From Leucobacter coleopterorum (GTDB lineage: Bacteria > Actinomycetota > Actinomycetes > Actinomycetales > Microbacteriaceae), in contig NZ_CP049933.1 of NCBI RefSeq assembly GCF_011382985.1, positions 2,356,001 through 2,420,000 of the forward strand: a DNA stretch of 64,000 nucleotides. Reading direction: 5' to 3'. Of the stretch, positions 51,318-55,649 are shown piece after piece. Made by a program: the position numbers and the translations under genes. The notes under the pieces were generated by a model that worked only from the letters and a program-made list of their open reading frames with translations, did not search any database and had not been told where the DNA came from. Within the stretch, counting starts at the first letter, position 1. Every line of letters starts with the position of its first letter.

Positions 51318-51342
51318 AGGAAGTTACAAAGCCTTATGAGGG

Positions 51343-52414
51343 CTAGGAACCCAGGTCCGCGAGTCGAGCCTCTTCGTCAGCCTGTATGCAGGAGTCGATA
51401 ACGGGCCAAGGGCTCCGTCCATCACCGCGTCAAGGTTGTAAGCCTTAAAACCGGTGCGGTGATCCGCGATGCGGTTCTCTGGGAAATTGTAGGTTCGGAT
51501 GCGCTCAGAACGATCCATCGTGCGGATCTGGCTCGAGCGGTGTGCGCTCGCCTCGGCCGCGGCCTCTTCTTGCTTGCGGGCAAGCAAGCGGGCACGCAGC
51601 ACGCGCATGCCAGCCTCGCGGTTCTGCAACTGCGACTTCTCGTTCTGCATGGCCACAACAATGCCGGTCGGAATGTGCGTGATGCGCACGGCGGAGTCGG
51701 TGGTGTTTACGGACTGCCCACCAGGACCGCTTGAGCGGTACACATCGATCTTGAGGTCGTTCTGCGCGATGTCGACCTCTTCGGGGGCGTCCACCTCGGG
51801 GTACACGAGCACACCCGTCGTCGAGGTGTGAATGCGACCCTGCGACTCGGTCACTGGCACACGCTGCACGCGGTGCACACCACCCTCGTACTTCAGGTGT
51901 GCCCAGACGCCCTGCGAGGGTCAGTCGCGTTCGACTTGATCGCGATCTGCACGTTCTTGTAGCCACCAAGATCGCTCTCGTCTTTCTCGAGAATCTCGGT
52001 CTTCCACCCCTTGGACTCGGCGTAATACATGTACATGCGCAGCAGGTCCGCTCCGAACAGCGCCGACTCGGCGCCACCCTCACCGCCCTTAATCTCAAGA
52101 ATCACGTCGCGCGCATCATCAGGGTCGCGCGGGATCAGCAGTCGACGGACCCTCTCCTGTGCTTCAGCGAGCGAATGTTCAAGCTCGGGGATTTCCTCGG
52201 CAAACGCCTCGTCTTCTTTTGCAAGTTCGCGCGCGGCCTCGAGGTCTTCGCCAAGTTGCTGCCAGTTCTCGTGTGCAGCCTTGATTTTACTCAACTCGGC
52301 ATAGCGCCGGTTGACCTTCTTCGCGCGTGCGGCGTCTGCGTGCAGCGCGGGATCGGCGAGCTCTTCCTGCAGTTGAGCATGCTCTGCGAGCAGAGTATCG
52401 ACCTGTTCAAACAT
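51343..52414 (-). CDS. prfA: peptide chain release factor 1 (two frameshifts)
   Basis: RF1 ends translation at UAA and UAG. Two single-base losses (G3 at 51918-51920 and G3 at 51403-51405) break the frame. Repair gives [20 protein letters not shown] in the middle and [21 protein letters not shown] at the C-terminus, 357 residues in all. The codon-recognition tripeptide is PVT ([11 protein letters not shown]), a common actinobacterial form of PxT, and the catalytic GGQ is in [12 protein letters not shown]. It follows rho by 23 bases. An essential gene with two breaks is strong evidence for sequencing error. Confidence 0.93.
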
Positions 52415-52437: not shown

Positions 52438-54501
52438 TTAAGAGAGTCGCCCTGAGCGCTGAATGTCAGCGAGCAGCGCAGCGTTCGAGGATGCGGCACG
52501 AACACGCTCAAGCACTTTGGCCGAAGCACCGTTCTCGGCAAGGGCAAGCCGCACTGTACCGAGAGCCTTCGCTTCTTCTTGACCAAGCATCGCGCTGGCG
52601 TGCTGGGTGTGTGATGCCGCAATGTCGACCACCGGGGCCTGTCCCATGGCGGTCTCAACAAAACGAATCTCGCTATTGACTACCTGACGAACCTCGCGCA
52701 GCAGTGCCTTATCGGAGTCGACCTTGGTCTTGGTGAGCGCGGTTGCGAGGATTGTGAGCGATCCACCGTTCTCGACATTACGAGCAGCAGACAGCAGACG
52801 CTTGATCTGGCCAAGCGCGTATTCGTCAGCGGACTCACTCGTGCCACGACCGCCACCGGGCTGGGTCTGCGCGTAAGCCCGAGCCAGGCGGTTGAGCGAG
52901 TCAAACAGAATAACGACGTCGTGGCCAAGTTCAACAAGGCGGCGTGCGCGATCCACCGCAAGTTCAGCAATCGTCGTGTGGTCTTCAGCCGAACGATCGA
53001 ACGTCGCAGCGATCACTTCACCGCGGATCGTGCGCTGCAACTGTGTAACCTCTTCTGGCAACGCGTTGGAGAGCACCATCATCAGGTGAGCATCGGGCTT
53101 GTTCTCGGTAACGGCTGCAGAGATCTCGTCGAATACGCGGGTTGCCGGAATCTGAGCGGGCAGAATGAGTAGCCCGCGCTGGCCAAGACCAATCGGTGCA
53201 ACGAGGTCGATGCTGCGCCCGATCATCTGGTGCGGAGTCAGTTCCATGCGCAGGCGCTCCTGCGGGAAGATGGGCGTCATATCTGCAATGTCGACGCGTT
53301 TCTCGTCTGCGTCAACGGCACGTCCGTTGATCGAGTCAACCTTGACGATCGCGTTGTACTTCTGACGGCTGCTGCCCTCACCCTCGCGCGGCTGACGGAT
53401 CGAACCGACCACAGCGTCACCGCGGCGCAGGCTGTACTTCTTCACCTGACCCAGCGAAACGTAGACGTCGCTTGTGCCGGGCAGGTAACCGCTCGTGCGC
53501 ACAAACGCGTAGTTGTCGAGCACGTCGAGGATACCCGCGATCGGCAGCAGCACGTCGTCTTCTGCGATCTCGGGCTCGAAATCATCGCCCTGGCCGCGGC
53601 GCTTGCGGTCACGCTGGCGGGTGCGGCTTGAGCGCGTCGCGCTCTCGTCCGTTGCTTTGTCAGCGTTGCGGCTCGCGCTACCATTACGGTTACCGTTCTG
53701 GCCCTGGTTGCGGTTCTTGGAGTCGTCTGACTCGCCTGCGTTCTGTTCTGCGTCGGCAGCGGGAGCGTCAGCCTCAGTCTTCTGACCGCGACCGCGACGA
53801 TTGCGGGTACGACCGTTCTCAGAGGCAGCGTCGACCTGCGACTCGTTGGAGTCGCCCTTGGAAGCCGCAGCTTCGCCCTCCGTGTCAGACGTGGCAGCCT
53901 GAGCCTTGTCGGCACCTTCGGTATTCTGCGCAGCCTCGGTAGTCTCGGCTGCATCTGCAGCGGGAACTTCAGCCTGCACGCGGCGACCGCGAGTGCGGCG
54001 CGCGGGAGCGGCTGGAGCTTCTGTGACCTCTGCAGCGGCTGCGGGGTCAGCGGGAGTTTCAGCGGCGGGAGCCTCAACAGGCGTTGCAGCTTCAGCGGCG
54101 GGCTCAGCGGGAGCCTCAACAGCCTTCTTACGCGCACGAGTCACCCGCTTCTTCGGAGCCTCCTCAGCCGCAGGCGCAGCCTCAGCCGCAGGCGCAGCCT
54201 CCGCAGCCTCCGCAGCCTCCTCAGCGGCAGGCTCAGCGGGAGCCTCAACAGCCTTCTTACGCGCACGAGTCACCCGCTTCTTCGGAGCCTCCTCAGCCGC
54301 AGGCGCAGCCTCCGCAGCAGGCGCAGCCTCCGCAGCAGGCGCAGCCTCCGCAGCAGCGGGCTCAGCGGGAGCCTCGGCAGCAGGAGTTCCTGCGGACGCC
54401 GTCGCGCGACGCGACGTACGGCGGCGCGTGGGAGCTGCTTCAGTTGTCTCTCCGTTCTCCGCCGCGGGAGTGGCATTTGTATCTTCGGTAGTTTGTTCCA
54501 T
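52438..54501 (-). CDS. rho: Rho-like protein lacking the ATPase motor motifs
   Basis: The gene at the canonical rho locus encodes 687 residues. Residues 1-310 are a low-complexity Ala/Glu/Pro then Arg/Asn/Gly-rich extension with an internal duplication. An OB-fold RNA-binding domain (about 314-397, including GILDVLDNYAFVRTSGYLPG) is well conserved. The motor domain keeps the fold and Walker B aspartate (ILFDSLNRLARAY, 530-543) but not the chemistry. P-loop PPKAGKT is PAQIPAT (448-454), IDERPEEV is SNALPEEV (catalytic Glu and bicyclomycin Arg lost), and the Q-loop GG, R-loop KGTGN and arginine-finger GTR are replaced. It may bind RNA without translocating. ATG at 54501 follows GAGAGGAAG. Confidence 0.9.
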   Translation of the reverse strand: MEQTTEDTNATPAAENGETTEAAPTRRRTSRRATASAGTPAAEAPAEPAAAEAAPAAEAAPAAEAAPAAEEAPKKRVTRARKKAVEAPAEPAAEEAAEAAEAAPAAEAAPAAEEAPKKRVTRARKKAVEAPAEPAAEAATPVEAPAAETPADPAAAAEVTEAPAAPARRTRGRRVQAEVPAADAAETTEAAQNTEGADKAQAATSDTEGEAAASKGDSNESQVDAASENGRTRNRRGRGQKTEADAPAADAEQNAGESDDSKNRNQGQNGNRNGSASRNADKATDESATRSSRTRQRDRKRRGQGDDFEPEIAEDDVLLPIAGILDVLDNYAFVRTSGYLPGTSDVYVSLGQVKKYSLRRGDAVVGSIRQPREGEGSSRQKYNAIVKVDSINGRAVDADEKRVDIADMTPIFPQERLRMELTPHQMIGRSIDLVAPIGLGQRGLLILPAQIPATRVFDEISAAVTENKPDAHLMMVLSNALPEEVTQLQRTIRGEVIAATFDRSAEDHTTIAELAVDRARRLVELGHDVVILFDSLNRLARAYAQTQPGGGRGTSESADEYALGQIKRLLSAARNVENGGSLTILATALTKTKVDSDKALLREVRQVVNSEIRFVETAMGQAPVVDIAASHTQHASAMLGQEEAKALGTVRLALAENGASAKVLERVRAASSNAALLADIQRSGRLS
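54101..54312. repeat. 83-bp perfect direct repeat inside rho
   Basis: The 83 bases at 54101-54183 recur without change at 54230-54312, 129 bases (43 codons) apart and in frame. They encode a Lys/Arg-rich block (KKRVTRARKKAV) flanked by Ala/Glu/Pro. Shorter 15-base Ala/Glu units (GCAGGCGCAGCCTCC type) repeat between and after them. Recent duplication or slippage in the disordered extension is the likely origin. Confidence 0.9.
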
Positions 54502-54720: not shown

Positions 54721-55649
54721 CTACGCGGGAATCGTCTCCACTGTAGCACCCTTGGAGTCAACCGCAAGCAGCAAAACCCGCCAGTCGTCTGCACGAGCGG
54801 CAACCAGGTCGGCCGCGGCTAGGCGCTCGGCCGGCCCGTTTGCCAGCACCAGCACTGACGGTCCGGCGCCTGAGACAACCGCGGGGTACCCGGCTGCACG
54901 CAGCTCAGAAATGAGATCTCGCGTCGGTGGCATGGCCTCACCGCGATAGTTCTGGTGCAGGCGATCCTCGGTTGCTTCAAGCAACAACTCGGGGCTCTGC
55001 GTCAGCGCGGCAATCAGCAACGCTGATCTCGACACGTTGAACACCGCGTCCTCGTGAGGCACCTGCTTCGGCTGCAGGCTGCGCGCGAGCGCGGTCGACA
55101 TCGTAAAGCTGGGAACGAGCACAAGCGGGAAGACTCCACGATGCACCATGAGTCGCTTGAATTTAGGGCCAGTTTCGTTTGTCCAGGCAATTGTGAGCCC
55201 GCCGAAGAGTGCCGGGGCGACGTTGTCGGGGTGCCCCTCAAGTTCGGTTGCAAACGCAAGCAGTTCTTCTTCGCTCAGCACGAGGGGCTGATCCGGCTCG
55301 CTTTCGAGCAACCCCTTTGCGATCATGACACCCGAGACGATGGCGGAACCCGAGGATCCCATGCCACGGCCGTGCGGAATGCGATTGTGGGCAGAGATGT
55401 TGAGCCCGGGCATGTCGCGCCCCAGACGCTCGAACACGTGGGCGGTGGCACGCACCACAAGGTTCGTCTCGTCGGTGGGCACCTCCCCTCACCAACGCCC
55501 GTCACGGTGACGGTGGCCCCGGGTGTGTCGCGGGTGGTCGCGGTCAGCTCGTCACCGTAGGCGAGCGCGATGCCGAGTGTGTCGAAACCGGGTCCGAGGT
55601 TCGCGCTTGTCGCGGGAACGTAGGTTTTGACGGTGCGAGGGGCGCTCAT
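54721..55649 (-). CDS. thrB: homoserine kinase (frameshift at 55485-55488)
   Basis: A GHMP kinase that phosphorylates L-homoserine with ATP on the way to threonine. One base restored in the C4 run at 55485-55488 changes GVGEGRCPP to GVGEGEVPTDETNLV and gives 309 residues. The N-terminus has VPATSANLGPGFD, the ATP loop is IPHGRGMGSSGSAI, and GAGPSVLVL lies near the C-terminus. Its ATG overlaps the hom stop (ATGA). thrC, which often sits between hom and thrB, is not here. Confidence 0.93.

Follow-up and report, generated by a model that had tools for sequence, protein, structure and literature searches.

Can a bacterium rely on a transcription termination factor Rho whose ATPase motor has been rewritten? 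The question is raised by rho of Leucobacter coleopterorum, which lies in a stretch of 64,000 nucleotides (contig NZ_CP049933.1 of assembly GCF_011382985.1, positions 2,356,001 to 2,420,000; hereafter the window). A preliminary description, made from the letters of the window, had proposed that the protein is an RNA-binding pseudo-ATPase, and our analysis supports and extends this proposal: in most Leucobacter species the single Rho is probably a pseudo-ATPase that binds RNA and does not translocate. We drew this conclusion from the loss of the residues for ATP binding and hydrolysis together with the retention, under strong selection, of the oligonucleotide/oligosaccharide-binding (OB) fold.

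Motor residues of Rho in Leucobacter

Aligning the window protein with control Rhos, 22 belonging to the order but not the family and 30 to the family but not the genus, we found that the ATPase residues of canonical Rho, i.e. the Walker A lysine, the catalytic glutamate and the arginine finger, are Ala, Ala and Gln, and that the secondary RNA site of canonical Rho, comprising the Q-loop glycines and the R-loop, is not matched (Table 1). Six motor residues (Walker A lysine, catalytic glutamate, arginine valve, Walker B aspartate, R-loop lysine and arginine finger) are all present in every control; given that the controls are top-scoring loci and hence canonical by choice, they show canonical appearance, not its frequency. 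The residues that the preliminary description had called lost or kept, the Walker B aspartate and the OB fold among the latter, were all correctly assigned. Scoring 355 bits with TIGR00767 (transcription termination factor Rho), the protein falls under the cut-off of 509.45. By sequence and predicted fold it nevertheless appears to combine the OB fold and RecA motor of a Rho; among solved structures M. tuberculosis Rho (7oqh) is the closest relative, and we file it as a putative pseudo-ATPase variant of a known protein, Rho. A second rho, which had been considered as an alternative, was not found when the whole genome was searched with the Rho family model: rho itself gave 357 bits, and the sole other match, at 38.7 bits, is taken to be an ATP synthase subunit.

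Searching 54 Leucobacter genomes revealed exactly one Rho match in each of 52, among them all 45 good-quality genomes; the two genomes lacking a match are 72% and 76% complete. The Walker A lysine is kept in 14 of the 52 and the catalytic glutamate in the same 14, which also retain the arginine valve, whereas 38 Rhos carry neither lysine nor glutamate and 37 of these have alanine at the glutamate position. Over all 52, the arginine valve is present in 23, the Walker B aspartate in 49, the arginine finger in 27 and the R-loop lysine in none, and 10 Rhos stop 38-56 residues before the end of the window protein. Among the best 120 of 7,996 scored relatives in a protein database, a sample partly overlapping the genomes in species, 55 lack both lysine and glutamate, 65 have both and none is mixed. 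Many of these 55 are labelled transcription termination factor Rho and some hypothetical protein.

The gene lies between thrB and prfA, in the order homoserine dehydrogenase gene, thrB, rho, prfA, and the C-terminal 373 of its 687 residues are the part that aligns with Rho. A Pfam scan of the window protein detected no Rho_N domain in the N-terminal part; because some high-scoring relatives also have no match to the Rho_N part of the model, we do not count this as part of the anomaly. The genome (one contig of 3,215,551 bases) probably carries base-calling errors, given its completeness score of 89.6% and the splitting of thrB and prfA into two frames each; the split of prfA, into frames at 51893-52414 and 51324-51878 on the minus strand, is likely such an error. 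That the motif losses in rho likewise arose from sequencing or assembly of one strain is, despite these signs, practically out of the question: rho, unlike its neighbours, is in one frame, Leucobacter viscericola, the nearest species, carries the same replacements in a separate assembly (96% identity over the C-terminal 373 residues), and 38 of the 52 Leucobacter genomes lack the same residues. Both error and a decay of this strain alone, an outcome for which the preliminary description had allowed, were thereby ruled out for the motif losses.

Table 1. The rho gene of the window, its replaced and retained segments, and its neighbours
Feature	Position	Strand	Description	Basis
rho open reading frame	52438..54501	minus	ATG at 54501, stop at 52438; frame open throughout, 687 residues
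N-terminal 314 residues	53560..54501	minus	Ala/Pro/Glu-rich with Arg/Lys-rich blocks, presumed disordered	sequence and Pfam scan
Rho_RNA_bind OB-fold domain	53320..53559	minus	strongly conserved	PF07497, 85.6 bits (cut-off 27)
Walker A position	53140..53160	minus	PAQIPAT for PPKAGKT (PAKAGKT in one control); Lys to Ala	alignment
Catalytic Glu and Arg valve	53047..53067	minus	NALPEEV for DERPEEV; Glu to Ala, Arg valve to Leu	alignment
Walker B strand	52897..52914	minus	VILFDS, Asp retained; controls LDS (LDG or LDN in four)	alignment
Q-loop stretch	52813..52848	minus	RGTSESADEYAL; double glycine gone, ES for GG; controls LSGGV	alignment
R-loop	52675..52695	minus	EVRQVVN for EFKGTGN	alignment
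Arg-finger segment	52594..52614	minus	SHTQHAS for S(G/S)TR(R/K)EE; Arg to Gln	alignment
C-terminal region past Arg finger	52438..52593	minus	of 23 positions invariant in canonical Rhos, 0 are retained by the 38 Leucobacter that lost the P-loop	alignment
thrB (homoserine kinase)	54721..55649	minus	two overlapping frames; upstream neighbour of rho	NCBIfam scan
prfA (release factor 1)	51324..52414	minus	split into two frames; downstream neighbour of rho	NCBIfam scan

Constraint on the OB fold and on the altered motor

In alignment to E. coli Rho, the six primary-site RNA-contact positions, which we take to be F62, F64, R66, Y80, R102 and Y110 in the E. coli protein, are Y, F, R, Y, R and Y in all 52 Leucobacter. 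Positions conserved in at least 95% of the 30 family controls were counted as kept if conserved at 95% in the 38 Leucobacter that lost the P-loop; the OB fold keeps 46 of 51 such positions and the motor 48 of 189.

We then compared close relatives using the ratio of nonsynonymous to synonymous change (dN/dS). Across nine hand-picked sister pairs, all without the Walker A lysine, the OB fold showed 10 nonsynonymous differences in 1,597 sites against 167 synonymous ones in 536 (dN/dS 0.016), and the altered motor 144 in 4,480 against 612 in 1,644 (dN/dS 0.064), indicating that the motor is constrained at present. Relative to RpoB, the motor has diverged 7.44-fold in 21 Leucobacter vs 0.62-fold in 12 canonical genomes, and the OB fold 1.90-fold vs 1.12-fold. 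The altered motor is thus now constrained after a change much faster than that of RpoB. The expectation that close sisters would share the replaced loops under purifying selection was borne out, and the gene has what is expected of a pseudoenzyme, i.e. absent catalytic residues in a gene that is present in every good-quality genome and under selection.

Rapid past change could also mean that selection on the motor is relaxed and that rho is decaying toward loss. Consistent with this, there is a graded series from near-canonical through fully altered to C-terminally shortened Rhos. Over all usable pairs, which are non-independent and partly saturated, the 1,098 Leucobacter pairs give a motor dN/dS of 0.406 and the 435 pairs of canonical relatives one of 0.082, the corresponding OB values being 0.128 and 0.193. 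We nonetheless consider decay unlikely, as a single open frame spans the OB fold and the core of the motor in all 52 genomes (the copy of G007 is cut by a contig end), the recent dN/dS of the altered motor is far below 1, the six contact positions are invariant and no good-quality genome of the genus lacks the gene.

The same constraint on a seemingly dead motor is compatible with a further alternative. The allosteric model of how Rho acts places the trapping of RNA polymerase before translocation. A Rho without a motor may still end or block transcription in an ATP-free manner, binding the elongation complex and its RNA and trapping RNA polymerase. In favour of this, in addition to the low dN/dS and the retained OB fold, nusG is kept: it exceeds its cut-off in all 18 Leucobacter and in 41 of the 42 genomes overall (the exception, G088, has a fragment only). 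The predicted fold also matches Rho chains from complexes with RNA polymerase (6xas and 8hsr, for example). Against it, conservation is absent from the C-terminal region, which 10 of the 52 Leucobacter have in shortened form, and we regard trapping as possible but doubtful.

Losses of motor residues across Microbacteriaceae

Among 398 genomes of Microbacteriaceae, 343 carry a Rho over the TIGR00767 cut-off. In at least two of the genomes below it (G137 and G119) Rho is merely broken by contig ends; the three pieces, two of them from G137, show canonical motifs where visible and were excluded from the counts. The cut-off undercounts altered Rhos, because those members of g37, g41 and g94 that were examined pass it without the R-loop lysine, as do two Leucobacter (G018 and G021). 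Motifs were read in 14 further, low-scoring Rhos, selected on that score from 11 genera other than Leucobacter: the R-loop lysine is present in 0 of 14, the Walker A lysine in 8 and the catalytic glutamate in 7. G148 and G095 have intact Walker A and DERPEEV motifs and have lost the R-loop lysine and arginine finger, while in G081, G163 and G142 the motor motifs are wholly altered. Two Rhos (L191 and L192, of G088 and G169) keep the Walker A lysine and have alanine for the catalytic glutamate, for which the prediction would be ATP binding with no hydrolysis. Another (L193, of G090) has arginine for the Walker A lysine and no catalytic glutamate, its OB fold being 51% identical to the family consensus.

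On an RpoB tree of 50 taxa, with RpoB picked by homology and the root placed on other families, Leucobacter and five sister genera form one clade without the R-loop lysine (support 90), and five more losses of this lysine fall elsewhere. Counting losses as irreversible gave 6 events for the R-loop lysine, 8 for the Walker A lysine and 8 for the catalytic glutamate; with weak nodes collapsed the counts were 7, 8 and 8, where the polytomies can be resolved with fewer events. Given that several nodes are weak, fewer losses are possible. The likely order is that the R-loop lysine was lost first, in a single event basal to the clade of Leucobacter and the five genera, and that the Walker A lysine and catalytic glutamate followed later and more than once, with C-terminal shortening in some species. 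A wider scenario, in which Microbacteriaceae made Rho motor-less repeatedly, with six starts by loss of the R-loop, and the dead Rho would still act on RNA polymerase, we put forward as a tentative idea with the odds against it.

Of 394 members of a sample taken across the class, 376 pass the same cut-off. In one actinomycete family (f45; G489, G594, G630, G790, G639 and others) Rhos score 474-557 bits beside relatives at 625-644. Out of 23 genomes outside the family, one (G051) has no canonical Rho match. G051 and G113 (96% and 93% complete) show weak Rho matches only, with best E-values of 1.2e-13 and 5.5e-4, respectively; both are in hundreds of contigs, and absence of Rho therefore cannot be concluded.

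Termination with an altered Rho and comparison with known systems

If the single Rho of most Leucobacter is a pseudo-ATPase, ATP-driven Rho termination would, we infer, be gone in these bacteria, and they would likely have to end transcription another way. Rho would still assemble, as a ring or another oligomer, and its OB fold would still bind nascent RNA, perhaps at RNA polymerase, where the protein could act as a static clamp, a scaffold or an RNA chaperone, while intrinsic hairpin terminators and other factors would take over the termination load.

Several observations weigh against this reading. The 14 Leucobacter with lysine, glutamate and arginine valve may still hydrolyse ATP. The earliest lesion, loss of the R-loop lysine, need not inactivate Rho by itself, because M. 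tuberculosis Rho, which also lacks this lysine, is described as essential in PMC8828861. Joint loss is not strict outside Leucobacter, as 5 of the 14 low-scoring Rhos keep just one of Walker A lysine and catalytic glutamate. This qualifies the joint-loss argument against an ATPase that binds and hydrolyses nucleotide through other residues; although the RecA fold and Walker B aspartate of the window Rho are kept, such an ATPase is very improbable given the joint loss in the 52 Leucobacter and in the best 120 of 7,996 database proteins. Codon distances are noisy at this guanine-plus-cytosine (G+C) content, and NusG scores of 163-173 bits in Leucobacter are slightly below the 172-181 bits of the 12 canonical genomes.

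Intrinsic terminators give the pseudo-ATPase reading no clear support. We scanned convergent gene ends with a home-made gene caller and shuffled controls, G+C being uneven between the groups. Hairpins with a T-run were seen at 22 of 122 ends vs 10.0 expected from shuffles in 13 altered-Rho genomes, and at 4 of 53 vs 4.1 expected in 7 canonical genomes, a contrast that is not significant (Fisher p = 0.10; p = 0.085 with shuffled controls before four altered-Rho genomes were added). Hairpins without a T-run exceeded the shuffles in both groups (36 vs 10.8 altered, 16 vs 8.6 canonical) and did not differ between the two (25/86 vs 16/53, p = 1.0). Dependence on intrinsic terminators, for which a first crude scan had looked positive, was accordingly dropped as support.

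Since no ATP binding or splitting is expected from the sequence of the only Rho of most Leucobacter species, the genus is a natural experiment that can show which roles Rho has beyond translocation and how transcription ends in a GC-rich actinobacterium that has no Rho motor. The graded series of relatives makes each step of the evolutionary route testable. If a dead Rho did act on RNA polymerase, the ATP-independent part of its action would be split from translocation, and the allosteric and torpedo models could be tested in living cells. The label transcription termination factor Rho, which most named copies carry, would be misleading for inference of function or of drug targets.

We found no paper on Rho in Leucobacter or Microbacteriaceae in a search that did not extend to bioRxiv; the 2013 survey of Rho conservation (D'Heygere et al.) may mention such a case. 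A literature search for degenerate Walker A motifs returned no paper with the phrase termination factor Rho. The short-form model paralog_Rho2 (NF041509) aligns over its whole length with the window protein, but at 330.3 bits the score is under the cut-off of 628, and in L. coleopterorum the genome search gave no second Rho.

Canonical Rhos (E. coli 1pv4 and others; M. tuberculosis 7oqh) share with the window Rho, judged by sequence and fold prediction, the OB fold and RecA motor, as well as the RNA-contact positions of the OB fold; the window Rho differs in having replaced the Walker A lysine, catalytic glutamate, arginine valve, Q-loop glycines, R-loop lysine and arginine finger. In PMC8828861, the motor residues of Rho are described as highly conserved, and M. 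tuberculosis Rho as a weak, bicyclomycin-resistant NTPase with threonine for the R-loop lysine; this protein is likewise actinobacterial and resembles the Leucobacter Rhos in the absence of that lysine. In Bacteroides, a disordered region of Rho phase separates (Krypotou et al., as described in PMC10284900). The window Rho is similar in carrying a long low-complexity, presumably disordered stretch ahead of its OB fold, but whereas the disordered region of Bacteroides Rho, by that account, regulates an active Rho, the motor of the window Rho itself looks dead.
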